Source: Halococcus salifodinae DSM 8989 (lineage in GTDB: Archaea > Halobacteriota > Halobacteria > Halobacteriales > Halococcaceae). From it: a stretch of DNA of 64,000 nt. The notes beneath the pieces are model-generated. The model searched no databases. It saw nothing but the letters and a program-made list of their open reading frames with translations, and was not told where the DNA came from. This document shows, in pieces, positions 17,084 to 32,789 of the stretch (the first letter of the stretch is position 1; each line of letters opens with the position of its first letter). The position numbers and the translations under genes are program-made. The DNA lies in NCBI RefSeq assembly GCF_000336935.1, contig NZ_AOME01000050.1, positions 30,607-94,606 of the forward strand. Direction: 5' to 3'.

Positions 17084-18328
17084 TCACCGAACAGGGATCA
17101 CGTTCTCGTCGAGCGAGCGTGGGAAATAGGTCAGCTGTTCGGTGCCTTCCTCGGTGACGACGATCGTATCCGAGTGGCGATAGCCCGCCTCGCCCGGGAT
17201 GTAGATGCCCGGTTCGATCGTGTAGACGTGACCGGGCTGCATCACCTCGTCGCTGCCGCGATCGATGAATCCGCGTTCGTGACCTTCGAGACCGATGTTG
17301 TGGCCGGTGTGGTGCTGGGCGTGCTCCGCGAAGCCGCGATCGGCGAGCACGTCGTGAACCGCACCGTCGACGTGCGCACAGGCGACGCCCGGTCCCGACT
17401 CCTCGATCGCGGTGGTCTGGGCCGCGAGCATGGCCTCGAAGCGCTCCCGATCTTCGGGACTAGGTTCACCGAGGAACATCGTGCGTTCGAGCTCGCTCAC
17501 GTAGCCGCCGACGTTCGCGGTCGCGCCCGTGACGAGGACGTCGCCTTCCTCCAGTCGGCGATTCTCGGTGAGGCCGTGTGGGAGCGCGGTGTTCGGCCCC
17601 GAGAGGAAGCCACACGAGGCGGGGAACCCCCCGCGGAGGCGCGAGTCGTAGCGCTCGCCGAGCGTGTCGAGCATCGCCATCGAGGCGTCGAGGCTGGCGC
17701 GCTTGGCCACCCAGAGCTCGTGTTTTCCCGGCTCAGCGTATTCCGCGAGCTTCCGGTGTGCGAGATTCCCCCACTTCGCCGATCGCCGCAGAAGGCCGAT
17801 CTCTCCAGCCGATTTCGTCTTCCGCCAGTCGGTGACCCACTCGACGGTTTCGACGTCGACGCCCGCGAGCTCACCGAGTGACGGCCCACTGTACCCCCAG
17901 TGGCCTGGCGCACCGTCCGAATCGGCCGCGATGCGCTCCGCACCGAGGTCGTCGAGCATCGTTCGGATCGTCGCTTCGGGGGTCCGTGATCGGTGTTCGT
18001 GGTACGTCTCGTGGGGAGTGGCGTTCTCCGCGTCGTCTGCGTCACCGATTCCCGGATAGTCGTAGTACCCATGAACGCGCTCGATCAGCGGGAAGTCGTC
18101 GCTCTCGGCGCGGTCGCGTTCGAGCCGCGGCACGGTGATTGCGACTGTCTCGTCGGTGACGGCGAGACACACCGGACGCTCGGTCTGGAGGTGGTGAAAC
18201 CCCGACACCCATTCGATGGCGGTCGCCGAGAACAGACAGAGCGTGTCGCGGTCGGTCGTCGCGAGTTTCTCACGAACACGTTCGATCCGGCGCTCGAACT
18301 CGGCGGGTGGGACTGTCGTCGGTGCCAT
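17084..18328 (-). CDS. M24 (Xaa-Pro peptidase/creatinase) family protein with altered metal ligands
   Basis: A 414-residue cytoplasmic pita-bread-fold protein: an N-terminal creatinase_N-like domain to about 165 and a C-terminal M24 domain. In metal-dependent members the ligands are D, D, H, E, E. Here the aligned positions read T267 (VLVTGA), E279 (YVSELERT), H343 (TGHNIGLEGHE), E372 (TIEPGIY) and S386 (YRHSDT), so three of five differ. H251 (ALPHG), the catalytic histidine position in creatinase and aminopeptidase P, is kept. It may be metal-independent or use a changed site. It neighbours a peptide-transport operon, which suggests a peptide-like substrate. Confidence 0.82.
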   Translation of the reverse strand: MAPTTVPPAEFERRIERVREKLATTDRDTLCLFSATAIEWVSGFHHLQTERPVCLAVTDETVAITVPRLERDRAESDDFPLIERVHGYYDYPGIGDADDAENATPHETYHEHRSRTPEATIRTMLDDLGAERIAADSDGAPGHWGYSGPSLGELAGVDVETVEWVTDWRKTKSAGEIGLLRRSAKWGNLAHRKLAEYAEPGKHELWVAKRASLDASMAMLDTLGERYDSRLRGGFPASCGFLSGPNTALPHGLTENRRLEEGDVLVTGATANVGGYVSELERTMFLGEPSPEDRERFEAMLAAQTTAIEESGPGVACAHVDGAVHDVLADRGFAEHAQHHTGHNIGLEGHERGFIDRGSDEVMQPGHVYTIEPGIYIPGEAGYRHSDTIVVTEEGTEQLTYFPRSLDENVIPVR

Positions 18329-18472
18329 ACACTCTGGACCGACGGCGACACCATGAGTGTTCTCCCGTTTCGCTCCACGACGACGATCCGAGCGCTGTCG
18401 ACCAGCAGAGCGAAGTTCGTGCGTGGAAGACGGGGAAGCGATGACGGGTCGACGACGAACGAACGCCGAATC

Positions 18473-18979
18473 ATGCTTGCCCGGAACGGGCGTCCACTGA
18501 TCGTGCCCGTTAGTGATCGCGAGGACCGCCACGGACTCGACGAGACGCGCAACTACCTCGCTGCGGCGCTCGGACGGTTCGTCCCGCAGCGCCTTGCGCG
18601 CGCGGCGTTACACGTCTCGATCGAGACCGGCCGAGAGCGCTACGCTCGGGGGGAGCCGATCGCGATCACCGCCACGTTCACCAACCGGCTCCCCGTCCCG
18701 ATCACGGTCCGAACGCCGCGCCAGCGGCGCTGGGGATGGAGCGTCGACGGCGAGCTCGAAGCGAGCGACGAAGCCCGCTACACCCGTTCGAAACCGAGCA
18801 GCTTCGGGTTTCGCCCCCGCGAGCGAAAGCGTTTCGAGTGGGAGTGGAACGGCCGGTTCGAACGAACCACCGAACGTCAGTGGGTGACGGCCGAGCCCCG
18901 CGAGTACGAGATTTCCGCGTTCGTCGCGCTCGACGGCGACACGCGGCCGTCGGCGACGACGACTGTGCGGATCGAGTGA
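18473..18979 (+). CDS. Beta-sandwich-like protein of unknown function
   Basis: A 168-residue protein starting MLARNGRPLIVPVSDRED. After a helical N-terminus the sequence has an Ig-like alternation: ALHVSIETGRERYARGEPI, ITATFTNRLPVPITVRTP, then RWGWSVDGELEAS and ERKRFEWEWNGRF. This order of strand, asymmetric Asn/Pro turn, RWGWS and aromatic E-x-W resembles the BsuPI intracellular proteinase-inhibitor fold, but that is inference from layout. There is no signal peptide. It is convergent with the oligopeptide ABC operon. Confidence 0.6.
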   Translation: MLARNGRPLIVPVSDREDRHGLDETRNYLAAALGRFVPQRLARAALHVSIETGRERYARGEPIAITATFTNRLPVPITVRTPRQRRWGWSVDGELEASDEARYTRSKPSSFGFRPRERKRFEWEWNGRFERTTERQWVTAEPREYEISAFVALDGDTRPSATTTVRIE

Positions 18980-18997
18980 CGGAAGCGAACTCGCGAG

Positions 18998-20296
18998 CTA
19001 CTCGCGATGGAGATGACAGGCTGCGAAGTGAGCCCCGGAGCCGTGCTCGGGCTCGATCTCGTAGGTCGGTTCCTCCTGCGCGCAGATGCTCTGCTGGGCG
19101 AAGTTCTCGTCGAGCAAGCGGTCGGCTTCCGCCCAGTCGTCCGAGAGCACGTTTTCGACCGCCCGGTCGACGATCGTGGCCGCCTCGCCCGCAAGCGACA
19201 CGTCCTCGAAGAAGCGGTGGCGAAGCGACCGTTCGCCTTCCGGTTCGAACGTTCGACGGTCGACCGCACGCATGAACGCCCGCACGGCCTCCCACTGGGA
19301 ATCGGTGAGATCGTACTCAGGCGGGCGGATGAGCTCGGGACAGCGCGTCCGGAATCGACACCCGGAGGGCGGGTTGATCGGGCTCGGAACGTCGCCTTCG
19401 AGCACGCCGCGGGTCCCCTCTGCACGCGGATCGGGGACCGGGATCGACGACAGCAGCGCCCGCGTGTAGGGGTGTTGTGGGTTCTCGAACAGCTCCTTTT
19501 TTTCGGCGAGCTCGACGAGCTGACCCAGATACATCACCGCGACCCGATCCGAGATGTACCGGATCACGGAGAGATCGTGGGCGATGAACAGGTACGTGAG
19601 TCCGAACTCCTCTTGGAGGGCGTTCATCGTGTTGAGCACCTGGGCCTGGATCGAGACGTCGAGCGCGCTCACGGGCTCGTCACACACGATGAAGTCGGGG
19701 TTGACCGACAGCGCCCGCGCGAGGTTGATCCGCTGGCGCTGTCCGCCCGAGAAGGCGTGCGGGTGGCGATTGTAGTGCTGGGGATCGAGTCCGACCTTTT
19801 CGAGCAGTTCGTGCGCACGGTCCTCCCGGCCTTCGGCGTCGAGCATCCCGTGGGCTTTCATCGGCTCCTCGACGATGGAGCCGACCTTCATCCGGGGGTC
19901 GAGGCTCGACTGGGGATCCTGGAAGATCATCTGCATGTCCTGGCGCTGCGCGCGCAGCTCCTCGCCACTCATCTCGGCGAGGTTCGATCCCTTGAAGTAG
20001 ACGTCACCATCGGTCGGGTTGAGCAGTCGAAGGATGGTTCGTGCGAGCGTGCTCTTGCCACAGCCGGATTCGCCGACGAGTCCGAGGGTTTCGCCCTCCC
20101 TGATTTCGAAGGAGACATCTTCGACCGCGCGCACCTCCTCCGAATCGAAAAACCCGGAGAGGAACCCGCTCCCTTGGTCGAAGTGTTTGGTCAGTCCGTC
20201 GACTTCGAGCAGCGCGTCGGTGCCGGACGTCCGGTCGGTCGCGCCGCCGACCTCGGTCCCGTCGTCGGTTTCGGCCGGTGATCGGGCGTCACTCAT
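18998..20296 (-). CDS. Oligopeptide ABC transporter ATP-binding protein (DppF/OppF type)
   Basis: A 432-residue ATPase, last gene of the five-gene peptide importer operon. It has Walker [10 protein letters not shown], a Q-loop in [13 protein letters not shown], the signature FSGGQRQR and Walker [13 protein letters not shown]. The oligopeptide-specific C-terminal part contains [14 protein letters not shown] and a later cysteine in AACHLHRE, which can hold an iron-sulfur cluster in some members. A charged insertion of about 90 residues (about 325-410) separates these parts. It overlaps the upstream ATPase gene by 8 nt, so translation is coupled. Confidence 0.92.
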
Positions 20297-21428
20297 CGGT
20301 CTCACCCCTGCGACGCCCACCGTCGGCAGTGAGGTCCGCACCGAACCCGGCCTTGGCGTCGCTGGCGATCGGGTCGCTGTCCCAGTAACCGACGTCGAAC
20401 GCATCGTGCATCAGACACGCGGCGCGGTGGGGCGGATCACCCGGCTCGGTGACGTCGCGCGCGTCCGGATGTGCTCGAACGCACACCTCGCGCGCGTCCG
20501 GACACCGAGTGTGGAACCGACAGCCGGAGGGCGGATTGATCGCCTCGGGCATGACGCCCTCGATGGGCGAGAGTTCGCCGACCGTTTCGTCGGGGCGAGG
20601 GATGGATTCGAGCAGCGCCTGCGTGTAGGGGTGTTTGGTGTCGTAGAACAGCTGCTCGACATCGGCCTGTTCGACGATCTCGCCGAGATACATCACGTTC
20701 ACGCGGTCGCAGATCTCCGCGATCACGCCCATGTCGTGGGTGACCCAGACGAAACTGGTGTCGTACTTGTCCTGGAGATCGTCGACGAGATCGAGGATCT
20801 GGCCCTCGACCGTGACGTCCAGCGCGGTGGTTGGCTCGTCGGCGATGATGAGGCTCGGCTCACACGACAGTGCCATTGCGATCAGCACCCGCTGGCGCAT
20901 CCCGCCGGAGAACTGGTGTGGGTAGTCGTCGTAGCGGTTCTCGGGTTCGGGGATGCCGACCTCCCGGAGCATGTCGATCGCCTCTCGTTTCGCGGCGTCC
21001 GCCCCGAGATCGCGGTTGATCTCGATGAACTCCCGGAGCTGGCCGCCGACGGTGAACACGGGGTTCAAACTCTCCATCGGATCTTGGAAGATGATCGCGA
21101 TCTCCCGGCCCCGGATGCGTTCGCGCATCGTGGCGTTCGAGAGCATCTCGTCGCGCTGGACGAGTTCGCCATCCGATCGCTCCTCGACGCCGAACAGCGT
21201 CTCGCCGCGAAACGTGACTTCGCCACCGACGATCTCGCCGGGACTCTCGACCAGCCGGAGCAGGCTCGACGCGGCGACGCTCTTGCCCGCCCCGCTCTCG
21301 CCGACCAGCCCCACGATCTCGCCCTCGTTCACCGTAAAGGAGATACCGTCGACGGCACGAACGACGCCTTCCTCGGTGAAGAAGTGGGTCGTCAACTCTT
21401 CGACGCGTAGTAGTGGTTCCTGACTCAT
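20289..21428 (-). CDS. Oligopeptide ABC transporter ATP-binding protein (DppD/OppD type)
   Basis: A 379-residue ATPase that pairs with the DppF-type protein to drive import. Walker A is GESGAGKS, the Q-loop is [12 protein letters not shown], the signature is FSGGMRQR and Walker B is [12 protein letters not shown]. The C-terminal motif [19 protein letters not shown] has the cysteines typical of oligopeptide ATPases. The tail (residues 345-379) is acidic and not conserved. It is preceded by permease gene dppC-type with a gap of 99 nt, still on one strand. Confidence 0.93.
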
Positions 21429-21527
21429 GATGTCGTCCTGTTTCGTCTCGTGATCGCGACTGTCTCTCCGACGGTCGATCGCTGCCGGTGTTGCGACCGG
21501 TCTCCAGTGGTTGCTGTCCGATGCATC

Positions 21528-22526
21528 TCAGTTGTTGAGCCGCGGATCGAGCGCGTCCCGGAGCCCGTCGCCGAAGAGGTTGAACCCCACGACGGTGATC
21601 AGAATGGCGAGCCCCGGCCAGAGGCTGAACCAGATGCTCTGGAGCATGTAGTTGCGCGACTGGGCGAGCATCTGTCCCCACGAGGGTGTCGGTGGCTGGA
21701 CCCCGAACCCCAGGAAGGAGAGTCCGGCCACGATGATGATGCTCACGCCGACCTGGAGGGTGGCCTGCACCAGCACGGGTGCGAAGCTGTTCGGCACGAC
21801 GTGCCGGAAGATGATGTTGCGGTCCCTGACTCCCGCCGCGCGGGCGGCTTCGACGTAATCCTCCTCGCGCACGCTGAGTACGCGCGAGCGTATCAGCCGC
21901 GCGAACACCGGTATCGAACCGATGCCGACCCCGATCATCGCGAAGAGGAGATCACGCCCGAACACCGACATGAACGTGATCACGAGGATCAGGAAGGGGA
22001 TGGCGTACAGCGTCTCGACGCCGCGCATCAACACGTCGTCGACCCACCCGCCGTAGTAGCCTGCCACCGCGCCCACGACCACGCCGCCGAACAGCCCGAA
22101 CGCGGTCGCGATGAACCCGACCTGGATCGCGATCCGTGTCCCGTAAAACAGGCGCGCGAGGATGTCGCGGCCACGGTTGTCGGTGCCGAGTGGGTGTTCC
22201 CACGTCCCGGTACCAAGTCCGTTCTCGACCCCGACAGGAGGCAACAGCGCCTCGACGGTCACTGGGTCGGTCGCGGGGTTGACCCAGAACGTGCTCGCGA
22301 ACCAGTAGTCGAGCAGCTTCGCGTCGACGTACGCGAACACCGCGACCGCGGTCATGAAGCCGATGATGAACAACCCCGCGAGCGCGGTCGGGTCGCTTCG
22401 GACTTGAGTGAGGGTGTAGCGCCACCCCACCCGAGATTCGACCGCGCGTTCGCTCTCGTCGGCTCCACTCTCCTCGGTCTGACCCGAGGAAAGCATCTCG
22501 TCGGATTGGGTATCACTCGTTGCCAT
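21528..22526 (-). CDS. Oligopeptide ABC transporter permease (DppC/OppC type)
   Basis: A 332-residue inner-membrane permease with a hydrophilic N-terminus (MATSDTQSDEMLSSG), one helix, a large external loop (TGTWEHPLGTDNRGRDILAR, the DppC hallmark) and five more helices. The ATPase-coupling EAA loop is EAARAAGVRDRNIIFRHVVP. The ATG at 22526 lies directly after the stop of the partner permease, indicating coupled translation. Confidence 0.93.
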   Translation of the reverse strand: MATSDTQSDEMLSSGQTEESGADESERAVESRVGWRYTLTQVRSDPTALAGLFIIGFMTAVAVFAYVDAKLLDYWFASTFWVNPATDPVTVEALLPPVGVENGLGTGTWEHPLGTDNRGRDILARLFYGTRIAIQVGFIATAFGLFGGVVVGAVAGYYGGWVDDVLMRGVETLYAIPFLILVITFMSVFGRDLLFAMIGVGIGSIPVFARLIRSRVLSVREEDYVEAARAAGVRDRNIIFRHVVPNSFAPVLVQATLQVGVSIIIVAGLSFLGFGVQPPTPSWGQMLAQSRNYMLQSIWFSLWPGLAILITVVGFNLFGDGLRDALDPRLNN

Positions 22527-22527
22527 G

Positions 22528-23526
22528 TCAGTCCCGTTCACCGTAGGAGACGCGCGGGTCGACGTACGCGTAGGAGAGATCGGTGATGATCACTCCGATC
22601 ACGAACGCCAGCCCGAAGACGATCGTCGTTCCCATTATCAGTTGGTAGTCCTGGTTGTAGACGCCGGTCAGGATGAGCGTCCCCATCCCGTTGATGCTGA
22701 ACACCGTCTCGGTCAGCACCGCACCGCCGAGCGCGGTCGAGAGATTCAATCCGAGCACCGTCAACACCGGCAGCTGTGCGTTGCGGAACGCGTGTTTCCT
22801 GAGGATCGTGGTCTCGGAGACGCCGTAGGCCCGCGCGAGTCTGACGTACTCCTCCGAGAGGGTTTCGAGCATCGAGGAGCGTTCGATCCGCGTGATCGCC
22901 GCCATCTGGAGCGTCCCGAGCGAGAGCGTCGGCAGGATGAGGTGTCTCGCCGACGTGACCACCACGTCGAGACGCGTCGACGCCCCCTCGACCCGGAGCG
23001 GATGCGCCCACGGCAGTATCAGGTTCGTCGCGGGGAGCCACCCGAGCTTGAACGCGAAGACGATGATGAGCATCAGCCCGATCCAGAAGGAGGGCGTGCT
23101 CACGCCGATCAGCGCGACGACCCGCGAGATGTGGTCGGTCGGCTTGTTCCGTCGCTGCGCCGAGAGGACGCCGAGCGGGATCGACGCCACGATAGCGAAC
23201 GTGAAACTCGACAGCAACAACAGCAGCGTCACCGGCAGCCGCTCCATGATCTTCTGAGTGACGGGCACCCCATAGTAGAGGCTCTGGCCGAGGTCTCCCT
23301 GGACGACGCCCGCGAGGTAGTTGAAGTACCGGACGTACAGCGGCTGATCGAGACCGTATTTCGCCTGGATCGCCGCGACTTGTCCCGGTGTCGGCGACGG
23401 ACCGAGCATGATGCGTGCCGGATTGCCGGGGATGGCGTTCGAGAGGAGGAACGTGATCGTCACGATACCGATCAACACCGGTATCGCCTGGAGTAGCCGT
23501 CGGGCGGTGTAGCGAGCTAGCCCCAC
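22528..23526 (-). CDS. Oligopeptide ABC transporter permease (DppB/OppB type)
   Basis: A 332-residue permease beginning with GTG. The N-terminal helix (RRLLQAIPVLIGIVTITF) and the motif AIPGNPARIMLG are typical of DppB. The external loop ends LGQSLYYGVPV, and the EAA motif is LARAYGVSETTILRKHAFRN. The C-terminal YAYVDPRVSYG is the usual DppB ending. It forms the heterodimeric channel with the DppC-type gene downstream. A 97 nt gap separates it from the binding-protein gene, room for transcript processing that raises binding-protein yield. Confidence 0.93.
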   Translation of the reverse strand: MGLARYTARRLLQAIPVLIGIVTITFLLSNAIPGNPARIMLGPSPTPGQVAAIQAKYGLDQPLYVRYFNYLAGVVQGDLGQSLYYGVPVTQKIMERLPVTLLLLLSSFTFAIVASIPLGVLSAQRRNKPTDHISRVVALIGVSTPSFWIGLMLIIVFAFKLGWLPATNLILPWAHPLRVEGASTRLDVVVTSARHLILPTLSLGTLQMAAITRIERSSMLETLSEEYVRLARAYGVSETTILRKHAFRNAQLPVLTVLGLNLSTALGGAVLTETVFSINGMGTLILTGVYNQDYQLIMGTTIVFGLAFVIGVIITDLSYAYVDPRVSYGERD

Positions 23527-23623
23527 GGCTCACCCCCGTAGCGGCGGTACGTGGGTACCGTTCGTGTGGTTGTCGTGTCAGTCATGATGGGATACGAACG
23601 AAATCGAAACGCTTCGGCCGGAA

Positions 23624-25312
23624 CTACTTCTCGACCGAGACGTTGTTGTAGCCGGTGGCGATGCTGAAGCTGCCGACCGGGTGTGACGTGAAATCCTTGA
23701 CGTAGTTTTTCACGCCGAAGCTGTTCTTGAGGTTGTACGCCGGCAGGTTCACCCGGTCTTCGAGGAGGGTCGTGATGGCCTGCTGGTACAGTTTTTTTCG
23801 CTCTCCTCTGTCGGTCGACTTCCGGGCGTTCACGATCGCAGAGTTGACCTCGTCGTTCTGGTAGAACACGCCCTGGCCGACACCCGCCTGGGATTGGGCG
23901 AACAGGAAGTACATGAACGAGTCGGGATCGGGCGTGCCCGACCACCCGAGCGTGTACATGTTGTAGTCGTTGGGGTCGCCCGTGACGTACCTGTCGAGGA
24001 ACGTCCCCCAGTCGAGTCGCTGGACGGTCGCGCCGTAGCCCGCCTCTTTCAGCCCGTTGGCGACGCTGGTGCCGATCTGTTCGCGCTTGTCGTCCGGCGG
24101 GACGATGATCTTCGCGTTCCAGTTGTCCGGGACGTTGTCGTTGTCGTCGAGCATCGACTTCGCCTTGTCGACGTCCTTGTCGTGGGGGATCTTCTTCCAC
24201 TCCTCGATCGGCATGTCCCAGTCGTCGACGAGGACCTTCGGCAGCGGGCTGTACTGGCGGAGCCCGGTCGGTTCGACGAAGTTCGAGACGGCCTGATCCA
24301 TCGAGACCGCGTAGTCGATCGCCTCGCGGACCTTCGGATCCGCGGTCGGCCCCTTCTTGCAGTTGAACGCGAGATAGAAGTAGCCGACGCCCGGGACGGC
24401 GTCGATCGACGCGTTGCCCATGTTCTTCACGGTGTTCCACGACTTCGGCGGGATCTCCTCGATGACGTCGTTCTCGCCCGATTTGAGGGTGGTGACCCGG
24501 GTGGTCCCCTCCTCGACCGGCACGAACTCGATCCCCGAGAGGTTCGGCGTGGGATCGCCCCAGTAGTCGTCCCACCGCTTCACCCGTGCGAAGTCGCCTT
24601 CCTGCCACCCCTCGAAGGTGAACGGCCCGGCCCCGACCGGGTTTTTGGTGTTGAACGCCTGCTTGTTCTGCTCGCGGACCGACTTCGGCACGACGTTGGC
24701 CGCGAGATAGCTGTTGAACGCCCCGAAGGGGTACTTCAGATCGAACTGGACCGTCTTCTCGTCGACGGCCTCGGCAGTGTCGATCATGTTGAAGTTGGCG
24801 GCGTTCTCGGTCTCCTCCTTCACCGGGGCGGTGAAGGTGTACGCCACGTCCTCCGCGGTCACCGGGTCACCGTTGTGGAACGTCGCGTCCTCGTTGAGCG
24901 GGACGACGTAGCGTTGGCCCCCGTTCTCGACTTCGGGCTGCTTCGCTGCGATCTGCGGAACGATCTTCTTGCCCGCCTCGTTCCACTCGTACAACGGATC
25001 GAACACCAGTGAGGCGACCTGATCCGAGGGAACGTCGTTCAGGACGATCGGATCGAACTCGATCGGACTCTTGACCTGGGCGAACGTGAGCTGTCCGCCG
25101 CTACCGCCACCACCACCGCCGCTTTCGTTGGCGCTACCGTTTCCGCCACCGCTACCGTTTCCACCGCCCCCGCCACTGCCGTTTCCGCTACCGTTCCCTT
25201 CGTCAGGGGCGGTGGCGCTCTGACAACCGGCCAAACCGGCGATGCCGATCGCGCCGGTCCCCTGTAGGAGGCGGCGTCTGGTCACGTCGTATGTCGTCTG
25301 TTTGTCCGTCAT
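23624..25312 (-). CDS. Oligopeptide ABC transporter substrate-binding lipoprotein (family 5)
   Basis: A 562-residue extracellular binding protein, first gene of the importer operon. It has a Tat signal (DVTRRRLLQGTG), lipobox GLAGC and then a Gly/Asn/Ser-rich tether of about 50 residues that keeps the domain off the membrane. The SBP_bac_5 domain follows, with family motifs DATFHNGDPVTAEDVAYTF and GAGPFTFEGW. The fold binds peptides, nickel or glycosides; the M24-like and amidohydrolase neighbours favour peptides. A possible promoter (ataaaac...tttacaata) lies within 60 nt upstream. Confidence 0.92.
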   Translation of the reverse strand: MTDKQTTYDVTRRRLLQGTGAIGIAGLAGCQSATAPDEGNGSGNGSGGGGGNGSGGGNGSANESGGGGGGSGGQLTFAQVKSPIEFDPIVLNDVPSDQVASLVFDPLYEWNEAGKKIVPQIAAKQPEVENGGQRYVVPLNEDATFHNGDPVTAEDVAYTFTAPVKEETENAANFNMIDTAEAVDEKTVQFDLKYPFGAFNSYLAANVVPKSVREQNKQAFNTKNPVGAGPFTFEGWQEGDFARVKRWDDYWGDPTPNLSGIEFVPVEEGTTRVTTLKSGENDVIEEIPPKSWNTVKNMGNASIDAVPGVGYFYLAFNCKKGPTADPKVREAIDYAVSMDQAVSNFVEPTGLRQYSPLPKVLVDDWDMPIEEWKKIPHDKDVDKAKSMLDDNDNVPDNWNAKIIVPPDDKREQIGTSVANGLKEAGYGATVQRLDWGTFLDRYVTGDPNDYNMYTLGWSGTPDPDSFMYFLFAQSQAGVGQGVFYQNDEVNSAIVNARKSTDRGERKKLYQQAITTLLEDRVNLPAYNLKNSFGVKNYVKDFTSHPVGSFSIATGYNNVSVEK

Positions 25313-25455
25313 GAGCTGGTTTGTTCCTCGGTAACGCGTTCTTCCCGGAGCTATTGTAAATGTTTTATGGCCGGGGTCGTCCCAGGAACTGTCGACACAA
25401 CGGATAGAACGGACGATCGGGCCGGCGAACGTCGGTGTGGAGCTGGTTCGGCGAC

Positions 25456-26646
25456 CTACCGCTCCCACTCCTCGCGGAGATCCGTGGCGTCGCGCTCGTG
25501 ATCGAAGACGTGCTCACCGTCGACGAACACGTGTTGGGCGGTCGAGTCGAACGCGTAGAACTCGTCGTCCCACACCGCGAGGTCGGCGTCAGTGCCTTCT
25601 TCGAGCGTCCCGACGCGATCCCCGATCCCGAGAATTGCGGCCGGATTCTTGGTCACGGTGTCGAGCGCGGCGTCGGCGGGGAGTCCCTCCCGAACCGCGA
25701 GACCCACACAGACATCGAGATGTTGCTGGGGCAGGACGGGCGCGTCGGTCTGGATCGCGACGGTCACGCCCGCCTCGTGGAGCAGGCCTGGCGTCTCGAA
25801 GGTGATGTTCGACAGCTCGTACTTGGTTGCGCTCGACGCGCTCGGCCCCACCACGGCAGGAACGTCGCGTTCGGCGAACTCCTCGGCGATCAGGTGGCCC
25901 TCGGTCGCGTGCTCGATCGAGAGGTTCTCGATCCCGAACTCTTCGGTTATTCGGAACACCGTCATGATGTCGTCGGCCCGGTGGGCGTGGACTCTGAACG
26001 GGAGATCGCCCTCCAAGACTCGCACGAGATGTTCCATTCCGAGATCGCGCTCGAACGGGTCGCCCTCCTCGGCGGCGTGATCACGCCGGTTCTGGTAATC
26101 CTCGGCGCTCATCAGTGCCTCTCGGAGTGTAGCCGCGACACCCGAGCGGGTCGCGGGCTCGCGGTCGTACTCCTCGCCGTGGACGCGCTTGGGATTCTCG
26201 CCCATCGCGGCCTTCATCCCGTCCTCACGGAGGAACATCTCGTCGGCGAGGTTCCCGTGGGTCTTCATCGAGCAGATCACGCCGCCGATCACGTTCGCAC
26301 TCCCCATCCGGGCGCTCACGGTCGTCACGCCACTCCGGACGGCGTGATCGAGCTCCTCGTCGTGGGGATGAAACCCGTCGAGCGCCGAGACGTGCGGCGT
26401 CACTGGATCGGTCAACTCGTTGATGTCGCCGTCCTCGGGCTCGCCCCACTCGGCCATCCCGGCGTGGCTGTGAGCGTCGATCAGGCCCGGTGTGACGTGG
26501 TTCCCATCGCAGTCGAGGACGTTCGCCCCGTCGGGAACGTCGATATCGCCCACTGCGCTGATCTCGCTGCCCTCGACGAGCACGCCGCCCTCGACTGTCC
26601 CGCGATCGGTCGCCGTGTGAACGATTGCATTGGTGAGTGCGTACAC
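25456..26646 (-). CDS. Amidohydrolase (imidazolonepropionase-like)
   Basis: A 396-residue metal-dependent hydrolase of the amidohydrolase superfamily, starting with GTG. The metal site is formed by DAHSHAG near residue 58 (H-x-H), HAHRADD mid-barrel, a further His in SIEHATEG and the late Asp in IQTDAPVLP. A small N-terminal and C-terminal beta-sandwich (LVEGSEISAVGDI and VFVDGEHVF) completes the fold. Such proteins often cleave cyclic amides or prolidase-type dipeptides. Lying upstream of the peptide-importer operon on the same strand, it may process an imported peptide, but substrate is not predictable. Confidence 0.85.
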   Translation of the reverse strand: MYALTNAIVHTATDRGTVEGGVLVEGSEISAVGDIDVPDGANVLDCDGNHVTPGLIDAHSHAGMAEWGEPEDGDINELTDPVTPHVSALDGFHPHDEELDHAVRSGVTTVSARMGSANVIGGVICSMKTHGNLADEMFLREDGMKAAMGENPKRVHGEEYDREPATRSGVAATLREALMSAEDYQNRRDHAAEEGDPFERDLGMEHLVRVLEGDLPFRVHAHRADDIMTVFRITEEFGIENLSIEHATEGHLIAEEFAERDVPAVVGPSASSATKYELSNITFETPGLLHEAGVTVAIQTDAPVLPQQHLDVCVGLAVREGLPADAALDTVTKNPAAILGIGDRVGTLEEGTDADLAVWDDEFYAFDSTAQHVFVDGEHVFDHERDATDLREEWER

Positions 26647-26707
26647 GACGTGGACGAGGCAAGATTCACACTAAAGCGCTCGGATCACCCGCCCGAATCT
26701 CCGGCGA

Positions 26708-26977
26708 TCAGATCGTGTCGTCGGGATCGTGCTCGTCGGCCATCCGGCGTACTTCGTCCGCATACCGTTCCTGAACGTCGGTCTCCGTTACGGCTTCGAG
26801 GTTGTCCGGCGAGACGTCCTTGGCGGCAGTCACTCCGTCCATATCGATCGCCTGGGCCGCGAGCTCCCGCCGGAAAATCTGATCGCCCTCGGTCGTCGCG
26901 TACTTGAGGACGATGAGATCGCGGTTGTTGTAGCCGCGCTCGACGAGCCACACGCGGACGTCGTCTGCCGATGGCAT
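26708..26977 (-). CDS. Small conserved-looking protein of unknown function
   Basis: An 89-residue soluble protein starting MPSADDVRVWLVERGYNNRD. The composition is acidic and evenly coding-like (LIVLKYATTEGDQIFRRE, LAAQAIDMDGVTAAKD), with a helical C-terminus rich in Asp and Glu ending HDPDDTI. I recognise no family. The ATG at 26977 was taken over a GTG two codons earlier. It stands between the amidohydrolase and the divergent dgcN gene, so it may share a control region with either. Confidence 0.65.
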   Translation of the reverse strand: MPSADDVRVWLVERGYNNRDLIVLKYATTEGDQIFRRELAAQAIDMDGVTAAKDVSPDNLEAVTETDVQERYADEVRRMADEHDPDDTI

Positions 26978-27068
26978 GAGCACACGAACGGGAACCGCGA
27001 TGTTAGTCGTTCGGTCTCGACGACCCGAATCGTGGATCGGTCGGATCGCCTGCTGGCACCGAACGAGG

Positions 27069-27076
27069 ATTTTAAG
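27069..27076 (+). promoter_or_regulatory. TATA element of the dgcN-dgcA operon
   Basis: attttaag is centred about 28 nt upstream of the ATG at 27100 and is the only A/T-rich run in the interval, fitting a leaderless dgcN-dgcA transcript. Confidence 0.6.
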
Positions 27077-27099
27077 CCGTCAGTTCGCGTCGCCGTACC

Positions 27100-28113
27100 A
27101 TGAGCGTCGTTTTGCTCGCCCACGAGCAGTTCCCCGATCGAGCGAAGACCGCGGTAAGCATTCTCCGGTACGGCGACACCGAGATCACCGCCGTTCTCGA
27201 CCGCGACAACGCCGGCAAGCGCGTCGGCGACTTCCTTCCCGACGTGCAGGACGCACCGATCGTCGCCGGGATGGACGACGTCCCGGCGTGTGACGAACTG
27301 ATCGTCGGCATCGCACCCATCGGCGGCGGGTTCGAGGACTCGTGGCGGCCCGACGTCCGGCAAGCCCTCGAACGCGGCTGTGACGTCACTGCCGGCCTTC
27401 ACTACTTCCTCGAAGACGACGAGGAGTTCCGCCGCCTCGCCGACGAACACGACTCTGAGCTCTGGGACGTCCGCAAACCGCCCGCCGACCTCACGGTGAG
27501 CGATGGAGTCGCCGCCGACGTCGACGCCGAGATCGTGCTGACTGTGGGCACCGATTGCTCGGTGGGCAAGATGACCGCGACGCGCGAACTCTACGAGGCC
27601 GCACGCGACCGCGGCGTGGACTGCGGGTTCATCCCCACCGGCCAGACCGGGATCATGATCGAACGGTGGGGACTGCCGATCGACCGCGTGATAAGCGACT
27701 TCGCCGCCGGCGCGGTCGAGAAGATGATCCGTGAACGAGGTGACGATCACGATTACCTCTTTGTCGAGGGCCAGGGCTCGATCATCCATCCTGCCTATTC
27801 GGGCGTCACCTGTTCGATTCTCCACGGCGCGATGGCTGATAAGCTAGTCCTCTGCCACGAGGCCGGTCGCGAGGCGATCCACGGCTACGAGGACGTTTCG
27901 CTCCCTTCGCTCCCGACGTACGTCGACCTCTACGAGGATCTCGCGGAGCCGGTCCACGAAACGAACGTGGTCGCGGGCGCGCTCAACACCCGCAACGTCG
28001 AGACCGACGACGCGGCCCGTACTGCAGTCGCCGACTACGCCGACGTGATCGACGTGCCAGCGACCGACCCGGTCCGGTTCGATATCGACGACGTCCTGGA
28101 GGCGATCCTGTGA
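27100..28113 (+). CDS. dgcN: DUF1611 protein, D-glutamate N-acetyltransferase DgcN
   Basis: A 337-residue DUF1611 protein. In bacteria DgcN acetylates D-glutamate with acetyl-CoA, the first step of a D-glutamate catabolic route. The N-terminal half is a Rossmann-like domain (RYGDTEITAVLDRDNAGKRV, IGIAPIGGGF). The C-terminal half has a P-loop, GTDCSVGKMTA, and the motif FVEGQGSIIHPAYSGVTCS, both characteristic of the family. It overlaps dgcA by 4 nt (GTGA), so the two are coupled. The acetyltransferase role is transferred from the bacterial family; archaeal activity is inferred. Confidence 0.82.
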   Translation: MSVVLLAHEQFPDRAKTAVSILRYGDTEITAVLDRDNAGKRVGDFLPDVQDAPIVAGMDDVPACDELIVGIAPIGGGFEDSWRPDVRQALERGCDVTAGLHYFLEDDEEFRRLADEHDSELWDVRKPPADLTVSDGVAADVDAEIVLTVGTDCSVGKMTATRELYEAARDRGVDCGFIPTGQTGIMIERWGLPIDRVISDFAAGAVEKMIRERGDDHDYLFVEGQGSIIHPAYSGVTCSILHGAMADKLVLCHEAGREAIHGYEDVSLPSLPTYVDLYEDLAEPVHETNVVAGALNTRNVETDDAARTAVADYADVIDVPATDPVRFDIDDVLEAIL

Positions 28114-29153
28114 CGCTCGACACCGAGTTCGAGCGGGTGACGCTCGATCTCGACGACCCGTTCACCATCTCACGTGAGACGCAGACGGTCGCCGAGAACG
28201 TCGTGGTGCGCATCACCGACGCCGACGGAACGACCGGGATCGGGGCCGCCGCCCCCTCCTCACATTACGGCGAGACTGCGGACACCGTCGAAGCGGTGCT
28301 CCCGGATCTCCTCGCGGTCGTCGAGGATGTCGACGATCCCCACAGTCTGGATCGGATCGAGCGCCGGTTGCGGGAGACGGTTCGAGCGAACCCCGCCGCG
28401 CGGTGTGCGATATCGATCGCGCTCCACGACCTCGTGGGCAAGCGCCTCGATCTCCCGCTCTATCGCTACTGGGGGCTCGATGCCGACGAGACGGTATCGA
28501 CCTCCTACACCATCGGGCTCGACAGTATCGAACGGATGCGCGAGAAGACGGCTACGGCAGTCGACGCCGGCCACTCGGTTCTGAAGGTCAAACTCGGCAC
28601 CGAGCGTGACCGCGAGATCGTCGACACGGTACGAACGGCGGCCCCCGACGCCCGGATCCGGGTCGACGCGAACGAGGCGTGGACGCCCCACGAGGCGGTC
28701 GACATGATCGACACCCTCGCCGCTTTCGATGTGGAGTTCGTCGAACAGCCCGTTCCCGCCGAGAATTCAGAGGGGCTCGAATACGTCCACGAGCGCTCGA
28801 CGCTCCCGATCGCGGCCGACGAGTCGTGCGTGACGCTCGCGGACGTTCCCCGGATCGCCGAGCGCGCGGACATCGCGAACATCAAACTCATGAAATGCGG
28901 TGGGCTCCGCGAGGCGAAACGGATGATCCACACCGCCCGCGCACACGGACTGGAAGTCATGCTTGGCTGCATGATCGAGTCGAACGCCGCGATCGCGGCC
29001 GGCTGTCATCTCGCGCCGCTGCTCGATTACGCCGACCTCGACGGCTCCCTACTGCTCGCCGACGACCCGTACGACGGCGTCCCGATCTCCGGCGGCGAGA
29101 TCGATCTCGCCGGGACGGACCGTCCGGGAACGGGCGCGCGAGCGGCAGAGTAG
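28110..29153 (+). CDS. dgcA: Enolase-superfamily epimerase, N-acetyl-glutamate racemase DgcA type
   Basis: A 347-residue muconate-lactonizing-subgroup enzyme starting with GTG. Catalytic and metal residues are all present: K159/K161 (VLKVKLG), D186 (RVDANEAW), E212 (EFVEQP), D237 (IAADES) and the second catalytic lysine K259 (NIKLMKCGG). Relatives are L-Ala-D/L-Glu epimerases. Next to a DUF1611 gene, the DgcA role, interconverting N-acetyl-D- and L-glutamate, fits best, particularly as archaea have no murein whose peptides would need recycling. It ends 9 bp from the convergent M20 peptidase gene. Confidence 0.85.
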   Translation: MTLDTEFERVTLDLDDPFTISRETQTVAENVVVRITDADGTTGIGAAAPSSHYGETADTVEAVLPDLLAVVEDVDDPHSLDRIERRLRETVRANPAARCAISIALHDLVGKRLDLPLYRYWGLDADETVSTSYTIGLDSIERMREKTATAVDAGHSVLKVKLGTERDREIVDTVRTAAPDARIRVDANEAWTPHEAVDMIDTLAAFDVEFVEQPVPAENSEGLEYVHERSTLPIAADESCVTLADVPRIAERADIANIKLMKCGGLREAKRMIHTARAHGLEVMLGCMIESNAAIAAGCHLAPLLDYADLDGSLLLADDPYDGVPISGGEIDLAGTDRPGTGARAAE

Positions 29154-29162
29154 CCGCGAGCG

Positions 29163-30416
29163 TCAGGCGAGCAGCGCGACACAGCCGGCGGCGACGATGC
29201 GCGCCACGCCGACGACCTCGTCGGTGTGGACGAACTCGCCGGCCCCGTGGATGTTCGCGCCGTCGGGGCCGACGATCACGGTCGGAAGGCCGGCGCGATG
29301 GCCGAAGTAGTTGAAATCGCCGACGCTCGAAAAGTACCCGATGGCCGGGTCGTCGCCGGTGACAGCCTCGACGCCGGCCCGCAGCGCACCCACGAGCGGA
29401 TCGTCGGCGTCGGTGACGTACGGCCCGTAGCGAACGTCCGGCGCGGGCGCTTCCCGAAAGTCGATCTCGACGCCGGAATCGAGGTTGAGGTCAGCGACGA
29501 CTGCCTCGGCGTCGGCTCGAACCACGTCCTCGGTTTCGCCGACGACGACGTGCCGATCGACCAGCAGACGACAGGCTTCGGGGACCGAGAGCGTTTCACC
29601 CCCGCCTTCGATCTTGAGCGGGCAGACCGACCCATCGCCGAGCTGTTCGTGCGACCCGACCTCGATGCCGGTGAGGGCGTCGGCCAAACGACCCGCATCG
29701 ACCACCGCGTTCGTCCCCTTGTGTGGCTGTGAGCCGTGTGCAGCCTCGCCGGTCACGGTGATGTCGTAGAGAAATCGTCCACGCGCGCCGAGCAGCAGTG
29801 CGGGGTTTTCGATGTCCCGCTGGGCGAGAATCGGCCCGGGCTCGGTGACGATGGCGGCGTCACAGTCGTCGGTGACAGAGTCACGAATGAGCTGGTTCGC
29901 GCCCAGCCCGTAGGGGCCCTCCTCGTCGACGACGGCGGTAAAGAGGACGTCGCCCGCAAGGTCGATGCCGGCCGCGGCGAGGGCGTCGAACGCGACCATG
30001 ATGCCCGCGAGCCCGCCTTTCATGTCACAAGCCCCCTGGCCGTAGAGCTTGCCGTCCTCGATGCGCCCCGAGAGCGGGTCCTCCTCCCACGCCTCGACGA
30101 GTTCGACGGTGTCCATGTGAGCGTTCAACAGCAGCGTCGGCGCGTCGGGGTCCGTGCCCGTCAGGCGCGCGAGGACGTTGTTGCCCTCGAAGCCCGTGAT
30201 GTCGGGTTCGCTCACCGCGTGATACTCGGGATCGAGTTCGCGTTCGTCGAGCCAGTCGTAGACGAACTCGGTGATCGCCTCCTCCTCGAAGTACGGGCTC
30301 CGGATGCGGACGAGCTCCTGAAGGAGTTCGATGGTTTCGTCGTGGTCGATCCGCTCCGCGATCGCATCTGGGTCGGTCGTCGCGGTGTCGGGCGCGTCGG
30401 CGGGAGCGTCAGTCAT
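29163..30416 (-). CDS. M20-family deacylase/peptidase (ArgE/DapE-like)
   Basis: A 417-residue zinc hydrolase. The co-catalytic site is complete: HMDTVE, the bridging Asp in GACDMKGG, the catalytic pair in VVDEEGPYG, then VTEPGP and the C-terminal FVHTDE. The dimerisation domain has the usual GEAAHGSQPHKG. This subfamily removes acyl groups from amino acids. Its position against dgcN-dgcA suggests it deacetylates N-acetyl-L-glutamate (inference). It overlaps the permease gene by 8 nt. A second M20 protein at 58405 belongs to the lysine operon, so this one is probably not DapE. Confidence 0.87.
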   Translation of the reverse strand: MTDAPADAPDTATTDPDAIAERIDHDETIELLQELVRIRSPYFEEEAITEFVYDWLDERELDPEYHAVSEPDITGFEGNNVLARLTGTDPDAPTLLLNAHMDTVELVEAWEEDPLSGRIEDGKLYGQGACDMKGGLAGIMVAFDALAAAGIDLAGDVLFTAVVDEEGPYGLGANQLIRDSVTDDCDAAIVTEPGPILAQRDIENPALLLGARGRFLYDITVTGEAAHGSQPHKGTNAVVDAGRLADALTGIEVGSHEQLGDGSVCPLKIEGGGETLSVPEACRLLVDRHVVVGETEDVVRADAEAVVADLNLDSGVEIDFREAPAPDVRYGPYVTDADDPLVGALRAGVEAVTGDDPAIGYFSSVGDFNYFGHRAGLPTVIVGPDGANIHGAGEFVHTDEVVGVARIVAAGCVALLA

Positions 30417-31827
30417 CCGCAGTCACGTCCTGAATGTCGGGGTCGTACTCGTCGGATGGCACACCTGGCAGCGTGTCGAGGATCGCCTCGACGTCGGTGC
30501 CGGCCTGCTGCCCGCGATACCAGTAGACGCCGAACACGATCAGGCCGACGACGATCCACGGGACGTACACCGTGAGCGACCCCTGGTAGGCCTGGGTGAG
30601 CAACAAGAATGCACCGAGCGTGCCGACCACGCCCGAGACGAGGAGCCCGCCACCGAGATCGAACCCGGCCTGGTCGACCACGTCCGGCCTCGCGTAGCGG
30701 GCGTAGAGCAGCGTCACCGAGACGGCGAAGTACGCGATGAGGTAGCTGAACGTGGCGATCTTGATCGCCTGATTGAGTCCCGTGGTGTAGAAGGTCAGCG
30801 CCGAGGAGACGACGTAGAGCGTGAGCAGCGACCAGTGGGGCGACCCGAACCGATCGCCGACCGCCGAGAACCACTGCGGGAACACCTCGTCCCACGACCA
30901 CGAGTACGGCATCTTGATCCCCGCCGCCATGACCGCGTTCACGCTGGAGGCGGTCGCAAGGAGGCCGCCGATGGCGACGATGGCCGAGGCGTCCGCGCCC
31001 AAAAACGCCTCGGCGGCATCGGACAGCGGGCGGGCCGACTCGGCGAGCACGGTGTAATCCGCTACGACACCGTAGATGACCGCCGCCGTCCACATGTACA
31101 AAACTGTGAGAATCAACGTCCCACCGACCATCGACAGCGGGAGGTTTCGGGAGGGGTTTTTCACCTCCGCACCCATCTGGCCCGCGACCGCGATGCCGAT
31201 ATAGGCGTAAAAGAGCGGAACGGCGGCGGCGAGGAACCCGCTCGATCCGCCGGTGAAGAAGGGCTGGTAGTTCGCCGTCTCGATGGCGAACGATCCCGGC
31301 ACGACGAGGACGAGAATCGAGAGCACGAGCAGGCCGAAGATGGCGTTCTGGACGAGGCTGTACCCGCGCGACCCGACGAGGTTGACGAGGAAAAGCACGG
31401 TGAGAAGCCCGAACCCGACGAGCGCCACCTCGCTCTGGCCGGCGATGAGGTCGGGAAAGAACACCTGCAGATAACTCCCGAACCCGATGGCGAGCACCGC
31501 GTCGGCGGCCATGTAGCCGAGCCACTTCGACCACGTGACGAGGAATCCGGGCAGCCGGCTGTTGAACGTGCGCGAGACGTAGGCGTACGAGCCGGCCGCA
31601 CCCGGAAAGACGGTCGCCATCCACGAGTAGTTGATCGCGATCGCCGTCGCGAGCGTTCCCGCCACTGCCACCACGAGGATGACGCTCGGCCCGGTCGTCG
31701 CGCTTGCGGTCCCGAGCGTGACGAACAGGCCAGCCCCGAGCGTGCCGGCGACGACGGTGCTCATCGCCCCGAGCGGACCGATGTCACGTTGGAGACTCCG
31801 ATCGTCCTTCGACGTCGATCGTGCCAT
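30409..31827 (-). CDS. APC-family amino-acid permease
   Basis: A 472-residue secondary transporter of the amino acid-polyamine-organocation superfamily with about 12 transmembrane helices. The first helix shows the typical unwound motif GTLGAGLFVTLG, and conserved GAAGSYAYVSRTF follows in helix 3. The C-terminus is hydrophilic and acidic. It is coupled to the M20 gene by overlap and preceded 69 nt upstream by an HTH-10 regulator on the same strand. Context suggests uptake of an amino acid, possibly D-glutamate. The start at 31827 (MARSTSKDDR) fits the family. Confidence 0.9.
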   Translation of the reverse strand: MARSTSKDDRSLQRDIGPLGAMSTVVAGTLGAGLFVTLGTASATTGPSVILVVAVAGTLATAIAINYSWMATVFPGAAGSYAYVSRTFNSRLPGFLVTWSKWLGYMAADAVLAIGFGSYLQVFFPDLIAGQSEVALVGFGLLTVLFLVNLVGSRGYSLVQNAIFGLLVLSILVLVVPGSFAIETANYQPFFTGGSSGFLAAAVPLFYAYIGIAVAGQMGAEVKNPSRNLPLSMVGGTLILTVLYMWTAAVIYGVVADYTVLAESARPLSDAAEAFLGADASAIVAIGGLLATASSVNAVMAAGIKMPYSWSWDEVFPQWFSAVGDRFGSPHWSLLTLYVVSSALTFYTTGLNQAIKIATFSYLIAYFAVSVTLLYARYARPDVVDQAGFDLGGGLLVSGVVGTLGAFLLLTQAYQGSLTVYVPWIVVGLIVFGVYWYRGQQAGTDVEAILDTLPGVPSDEYDPDIQDVTADD

Positions 31828-31896
31828 GCGGTAGCACACGAGAGCGGAGGAATAACACCCCTCCCTCTCATGAACGGCTCGCACGGCGCAGGCGGT

Positions 31897-32595
31897 TCAG
31901 TCGCCTCCGAGGAGTTTCGCCTCGGCCTTCCGGAGGTGTTCGAGCAGGGTCGCCTTCGAGACGCCGAGTTCGTCGGCCAGTTCGACGGCGTTCACCTCCC
32001 GTGGCCACGCGTAGTAGTCCCGTTTCCTGGCGAGCTCGAAGGCCTCGCGCTGGCGCTCGGAGAGGTCGTCGGTCGGCAGGACGCCGGGACCGCCCTGCGC
32101 GACCGCGATGTCTTCGACGCGGATCTCGGCGTCCTTCGTCTCACGAATGGCGTCGAGGCGCTCGCCGAGCGTCTCGCGATCCGTATCGACGATGACCGTC
32201 CAGTACTCCCTCCCACCGTGCATCCGGACCGGCTCGTCGGGGATGAACCCGCGCGAGACGAGCGCGTCGTTGATCGAGTTCTCGATCTCGTAGCGCACGA
32301 CGAGTGCGCGACTCGCGCTCCCGGGGACCGTCGTGTCGGTCGCGTGCGGGCGATCGGTCTCCCAGACCGAGTCGGTCAGGGACGAGGCCCGGATCGCGGC
32401 GATCAGCTCCTCGATCGCGGCGTTCGTCTCGCCGTAGGCGGTGAACCGGCCGGTGGCCGCCCCGTCGATCGTGTAGACGCCGTGACCGAGCAATCCCCCG
32501 TCACGCTCCTCGGTCACCGACAGCGTCCAGCAGTCGGGATGCCAGATGTCGAGCGTCACCCGCAGGCCCGTCCCGGGCCGTTGCGGCGAATCCAT
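31897..32595 (-). CDS. HTH-10 (Bat-type) transcriptional regulator
   Basis: A 232-residue regulator from the ATG at 32595 (MDSPQRPGTGLRV). The N-terminal 150 residues are the variable sensing domain (TLDIWHPDCWTLSVTEE). The C-terminal helix-turn-helix follows the family pattern: LSERQREAFELARKRDYYA, WPREVNAVELADELGVSKA, then LLEHLRKAE. A longer frame upstream lacks conservation. It sits immediately before the permease-M20 pair on the same strand and may control that pair and the convergent dgcNA operon (inference). Confidence 0.85.
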   Translation of the reverse strand: MDSPQRPGTGLRVTLDIWHPDCWTLSVTEERDGGLLGHGVYTIDGAATGRFTAYGETNAAIEELIAAIRASSLTDSVWETDRPHATDTTVPGSASRALVVRYEIENSINDALVSRGFIPDEPVRMHGGREYWTVIVDTDRETLGERLDAIRETKDAEIRVEDIAVAQGGPGVLPTDDLSERQREAFELARKRDYYAWPREVNAVELADELGVSKATLLEHLRKAEAKLLGGD

Positions 32596-32755
32596 CGCTG
32601 CCAATAGAATCAATGGGGAGAAAAACCGTTCGACCATCCGCCCGCCCGACAGAATTTGTCCGTCGCGACTCTTGCCCCATATCCAGTGCCGTCGAGTCGC
32701 GGGGTTCGTCTCTGTGATTCTGAACGGGAGCTGCCGAAACACGGTCGACCGCCCG

Positions 32756-32766
32756 TAGTATTATGT
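32756..32766 (+). promoter_or_regulatory. TATA element of the universal stress protein gene
   Basis: tagtattatgt is centred about 28-30 nt before the ATG at 32790. A perfect GGAGGTGA also occurs at 32781-32788, but with only one base between it and the ATG it is too close for a normal ribosome binding site, so leaderless initiation is more likely. Confidence 0.5.
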
Positions 32767-32789
32767 AGAGGTGTCGAAAAGGAGGTGAC

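Follow-up and report, generated by a model that had tools for sequence, protein, structure and literature searches.

The window, a 64,000-nt stretch of Halococcus salifodinae DSM 8989 DNA, carries a dgcN-dgcA (dgcNA) pair that faces a three-gene cassette encoding an HTH-10 (HTH10) regulator, an APC-superfamily permease and an M20-family deacylase. We give about an even chance to the reading that dgcNA is the haloarchaeal DgcN-DgcA route for D-glutamate (D-Glu), and that a separate uptake and deacylation cassette has repeatedly become the neighbor of dgcN/dgcA-type genes. For the dgcNA of the window, the cassette probably provides uptake and the last step. That haloarchaea break down D-Glu with DgcN-DgcA, the core of the finding, is already known; what is new is that the HTH10-APC-M20 cassette recurs and that it is associated with DgcN/DgcA pairs of two classes. 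The first-pass annotation had called the use of environmental D-amino acids by haloarchaea ecologically notable; the title of Yu et al. (2023, ISME J 17:537-548) reports DgcN-DgcA D-Glu catabolism and already names halophilic archaea. Shewanella turns D-Glu into L-Glu via the DgcN-DgcA pathway (PMC10845958), and members of the epimerase family in archaea without peptidoglycan have been remarked on earlier (PMC3605383). Our search of the accessible literature on haloarchaeal D-Glu use found nothing further.

Gene organization of the dgcNA locus

A Pfam domain search of the window confirmed the five genes of the first-pass annotation at or very near the positions given there (Table 1). The dgcA gene starts with GTG and overlaps the stop codon of dgcN by 4 bases (GTGA), and the proposed translational coupling of the two genes is therefore plausible. 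The dgcA and M20 genes are convergent with a 9-base gap, and the permease gene overlaps the M20 gene by 8 bases; the start codon of the permease may lie further in than position 31884. To the left of dgcN, the minus strand carries a run of genes (17084-26983) missing from the first-pass annotation, which consists of a 91-aa ORF and of genes for an amidohydrolase, a full set of oligopeptide ABC transporter components and an M24 peptidase. The amidohydrolase and the 91-aa ORF are retained next to dgcN in two close relatives (loci L041 and L042). Nothing else of the operon-like run at 17084-26646 is kept at dgcN in both of them.

Table 1. Features of the dgcNA locus, in positions of the window
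Feature	Position	Strand	Evidence
M24 (Xaa-Pro type) peptidase, end of the transporter run	17084-18532	-	Pfam Peptidase_M24, 154 bits
Oligopeptide/dipeptide ABC transporter	18998-25468	-	Pfam oligo_HPY, BPD_transp_1, SBP_bac_5
ABC transporter ATPases	18998-20404, 20289-21428	-	Pfam
ABC transporter permeases	21528-22541, 22528-23526	-	Pfam
ABC transporter binding protein	23624-25468	-	Pfam
Amidohydrolase, divergent from dgcN	25456-26646	-	Pfam Amidohydro_3/1; nearest solved structure PDB 3ooq, 297 bits
91-aa ORF between amidohydrolase and dgcN	26708-26983	-	No Pfam/NCBIfam match
dgcN, DUF1611 protein	27100-28113	+	Pfam DUF1611_N, 101 bits; DUF1611_C, 252 bits
dgcA, enolase-superfamily racemase/epimerase	28110-29153	+	Pfam MR_MLE N and C domains
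Inserted cassette	29154-32783	.	blastn, locus L042 versus window
M20-family deacylase/peptidase	29163-30416	-	Pfam Peptidase_M20 and M20_dimer
APC-superfamily amino-acid permease	30409-31884	-	Pfam AA_permease_2, 149 bits
HTH-10 regulator, first gene of the cassette	31897-about 32595	-	Pfam HTH_10, 62 bits

Identity and active sites of DgcN and DgcA

The DgcN of the window scores 254 bits against the NCBIfam DgcN model NF041892 and the DgcA scores 258 bits against the DgcA model NF042940, below the curated cut-offs of 480 (equivalog) and 400, while full-length Rhodobacterales proteins reach 549 and 501 bits on the same models. Judged by their sequences, the haloarchaeal DgcN and DgcA are homologues and not proven equivalogs. 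The window DgcN has the DUF1611_N and DUF1611_C architecture with the GTDCxVGK motif; it is 34-38% identical to Rhodobacterales DgcN, and the Walker-A-like GTDCSVGK is unchanged between the window and the bacterial proteins. Its structural relatives are PDB 2obn and 7xrj, and its AlphaFold model is poor (mean pLDDT 59.5). In the alignment of DgcA, the KxK motif, the D/E/D metal ligands and the second catalytic lysine are intact. In domains, motifs and catalytic residues, dgcNA is homologous to the DgcN-DgcA pair of bacteria and intact. Compared to the published DgcN-DgcA pathway (Yu et al., 2023), the window shows dgcN and dgcA homologues in the same tandem order with intact catalytic residues, but its proteins fall under the equivalog cut-offs, and it has a local HTH10-APC-M20 cassette where Rhodobacterales have a D-amino-acid transaminase.

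DgcA was also compared with the L-Ala-D/L-Glu epimerases (E. coli YcjG, PDB 3iji, PDB 3jva and the T. maritima type). They share the enolase superfamily, KxK, D/E/D and DxD, but the window DgcA prefers the NCBIfam DgcA model over the two epimerase models (199 and 187 bits, under their curated cut-offs of 343 or 500) and is strictly paired with DUF1611. Within the N-terminal '20s' loop, each of the 41 core haloarchaeal DgcA has an arginine, at the position which in the B. subtilis epimerase binds the side chain of glutamate. YcjG and the bacterial DgcA share this arginine, and one of these bacterial proteins was confirmed to pass the NCBIfam cut-off. The DxD motif binds the free amino end in dipeptide epimerases. 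It is present in all core DgcA (DLD in the window, after the last barrel strand) and in bacterial DgcA as well, and it therefore cannot separate a dipeptide epimerase from an N-acetyl-Glu racemase; we rejected it for this use. No Asp/Glu racemase above the Pfam cut-off was found in the window's genome, which fits a need for the DgcN-DgcA route. The same genome carries an enolase-superfamily gene with four internal stops, apparently a pseudogene (G000:C29:6393-7046; L040).

The first-pass annotation held that murein recycling does not apply in an archaeon. This was too strong, because the DxD motif is kept, an oligopeptide ABC transporter adjoins dgcNA, and haloarchaea could eat bacterial muropeptides. 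With its DxD, DgcA may also epimerize dipeptides, which counts against the D-Glu reading, as do the scores of the window DgcN and DgcA well below the NCBIfam equivalog cut-offs. In a peptide-scavenging scheme, the substrates would be peptides with D-residues, such as murein peptides from dead bacteria; the ABC transporter would import them, DgcA would epimerize dipeptides of the L-Ala-D-Glu type, and the M20, M24 and amidohydrolase enzymes would cleave them. The oligopeptide transporter, the M24 peptidase and the amidohydrolase next to dgcNA and the DxD motif are consistent with such a scheme, as are an oligopeptide transporter near the paralogous DgcN2 (see below) in 5 of 20 loci and the best PDB relative of DgcA, 3iji, a dipeptide epimerase. 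However, the transporter is found at core dgcNA in only one of the 40 other loci, DxD does not discriminate, and the strict DgcA-DgcN pairing is left unexplained. We consider peptide scavenging rather improbable.

Distribution of dgcNA

A DgcN homologue is present in 313 of the 342 Halobacteria genomes, and dgcA directly follows dgcN in 40 of 40 Halobacteria loci (59-93% identity; eight families of the sample). The same order is visible in 78 of the 80 Rhodobacterales loci, where neither the M20 nor the APC protein of the window has a relative near dgcNA. The D-amino-acid transaminase lies behind dgcNA in 58 of the 64 long Rhodobacterales loci; it is a D-amino-acid context for dgcNA and counts for the D-Glu route. 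A protein of the N-formylglutamate-amidohydrolase family, which may carry out the last step in bacteria, is found near dgcNA in 25 of these 64 loci. In 21 of 40 Halobacteria loci (within L049-L080), dgcN has a VLRF1-like (release-factor family) gene on its own strand at a distance of about 1 kb upstream, and that gene is often preceded by a DUF5802 gene. These two neighbors were rejected as a functional hint for core dgcNA because they yielded no metabolic link.

HTH10-APC-M20 as a separate cassette

APC orthologues (66-94% identity) are present in 40 of the 342 Halobacteria genomes. Among the 20 cassette loci that were read, HTH10 stands in front of APC in all 20 and M20 behind it in 19. M20 orthologues occur in 43 genomes, 39 of which also have APC, and M20 adjoins APC in 39 of the 40 APC genomes. 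HTH10-APC-M20 is a separate, conserved three-gene cassette with a patchy distribution.

At core dgcNA, the cassette is found only in the window and in genome G044, that is, in 2 of the 41 core loci examined (window included). In the sister genome G073, whose DgcN is 92% identical, the gap between dgcA and usp is about 60 bases by blastn, compared to 3.6 kb in the window, and searches of G073 at the thresholds applied gave no APC and no M20. Six other genus members have the permease, but at a different genomic site. The empty site in the sister species and the cassette's presence in 2 of 41 core loci indicate that the five-gene arrangement is recent and local, formed by insertion between dgcA and usp. 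The first-pass annotation had named the lack of a conserved neighborhood of the two operons in relatives as refuting its proposal, and no such conservation was seen among the core loci. The 39 of 41 core loci without the cassette also weigh against a D-Glu route that includes it: in most haloarchaea the route must run with other enzymes or with none in place of the cassette.

The M20 protein resembles the ArgE/DapE-type M20 deacylases in its M20 and dimerization domains and its dinuclear metal site, the metal ligands of which are intact by inspection. It differs from them in scoring 197.8 bits on the ArgE/DapE subfamily model TIGR01910, under the cut-off of 217.6, and far below all single-function models. 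M20 as a feature unique to the dgcNA locus was rejected, since the window's genome has nine M20 proteins; the presence of an M20 gene alone therefore proves nothing. The APC permease scores best on general and branched-chain amino-acid transporter models.

Linkage of the cassette to a second DgcN/DgcA pair

A second, divergent DUF1611/enolase pair, DgcN2-DgcA2, is present in 51 of the 342 Halobacteria genomes, with 54 copies of DgcN2; loci L193-L212, L100, L102, L103, L107 and L111 are among those that carry it. DgcN2, at 41-45% identity to the window DgcN, stands back to back with HTH10 in 5 of the 20 cassette loci, and in a sixth case (G325) DgcN2-DgcA2 and the cassette genes lie within about 6 kb. 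Ten genomes have both DgcN2 and APC, and the two genes are within 5 kb of each other in six of them versus 0.03 expected by chance. An HTH10 of the window's subfamily lies within 5 kb of DgcN2 in 29 of 54 cases versus 0.2 expected; both counts take genomes to be independent, although they are not. The linkage cases come from a number of families and lie on scattered branches of the DgcN2 tree, and the idea that the APC-linked DgcN2 genes form one clade was rejected on this ground. The cassette-dgcN-type link NEVERTHELESS is real and recurrent in genomes, and it looks functional. Only two sampled loci have the arrangement of the window, and by one insertion, as would be expected if cassette and dgcNA were chance neighbors in this lineage. 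However, the cassette and its regulator subfamily adjoin the paralogous DgcN2 far above chance, and because of this association pure chance is unlikely.

DgcA2 follows DgcN2 in 17 of 20 further loci. Its 20s loop reads ALGT or SLGT, with no arginine, and its best model is the T. maritima type epimerase, which suggests, at the level of sequence, that its substrates are non-acidic. A relative of D-aminoacylase / N-acyl-D-glutamate deacylase is encoded in four DgcN2 loci (L197, L198, L203 and L207). The DgcN2 linkage, DgcA2 and these relatives make D-amino-acid chemistry at the DgcN2 loci well supported. Three loci (L197, L198 and L203) encode an additional, third enolase-superfamily protein without DxD and without the GCM motif. 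A transporter-like protein of roughly 420 aa with multiple helices and no Pfam/NCBIfam match lies near HTH10 and DgcN2 in four loci (L193, L195, L196 and L205) and is perhaps a substitute for APC.

Because the cassette adjoins both glutamate-type and non-glutamate-type pairs, its permease and M20 enzyme may be broad or unrelated to glutamate. The cassette is thus not necessarily glutamate-specific and may serve other D-amino acids. The most serious rival explanation takes this further: the cassette would act on substrates other than D-Glu, for instance neutral D-amino acids or N-acyl-amino acids, and what it has in common with dgcNA would be the use of DgcN/DgcA-type chemistry, not D-Glu as such. 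The six genomes in which it adjoins DgcN2-type genes, the missing arginine and the epimerase-type best score of DgcA2, and the model preference of APC all fit this explanation. However, in the window and in G044 the cassette adjoins core dgcNA, with the arginine retained in DgcA, and the window's genome (G000) has no DgcN2 that passes the threshold. We regard this explanation as rather doubtful. The earlier proposal of a complete D-Glu module survives in part: dgcNA is intact and the cassette is truly linked to dgcN-type genes, but the word "complete" relies on assumed substrates of M20 and the permease.

Discussion

Under the D-Glu reading, the substrate taken up by the APC permease would be D-Glu or a D- or N-acyl-amino acid related to it. 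By homology to the bacterial route, DgcN would acetylate D-Glu and DgcA would racemize N-acetyl-D-Glu to N-acetyl-L-Glu, and the M20 enzyme would then deacetylate N-acetyl-L-Glu to free L-Glu. The acetylation of D-Glu by DgcN and the racemization of N-acetyl-D-Glu by DgcA reportedly have biochemical support in bacteria. M20 is a candidate N-acetyl-L-Glu deacetylase and APC a candidate D-Glu importer. The cassette would be under the control of its own HTH10, the ligand and targets of which we can only infer. It would have joined dgcN/dgcA-type genes repeatedly, here by insertion between dgcA and usp and elsewhere beside DgcN2-DgcA2.

A wider and more tentative hypothesis, which we hold possible but would not favor, is that one HTH10 subfamily controls interchangeable DgcN/DgcA modules and, with them, a mobile APC-M20 cassette; the core pair would be for D-Glu and DgcN2-DgcA2 for D-amino acids that are not acidic. 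Acetylation, racemization and deacetylation would then have been extended from D-Glu to various D-amino acids in Halobacteria.

Should the D-Glu reading hold, a D-Glu pathway with two known core enzymes gains candidate genes for uptake, the last step and regulation. It would also suggest that archaea apply the same N-acetyl racemization chemistry to D-amino acids besides D-Glu. Bacterial walls supply D-amino acids that make up a large pool of organic matter with slow turnover, and the core dgcNA pair is carried by nearly all Halobacteria.
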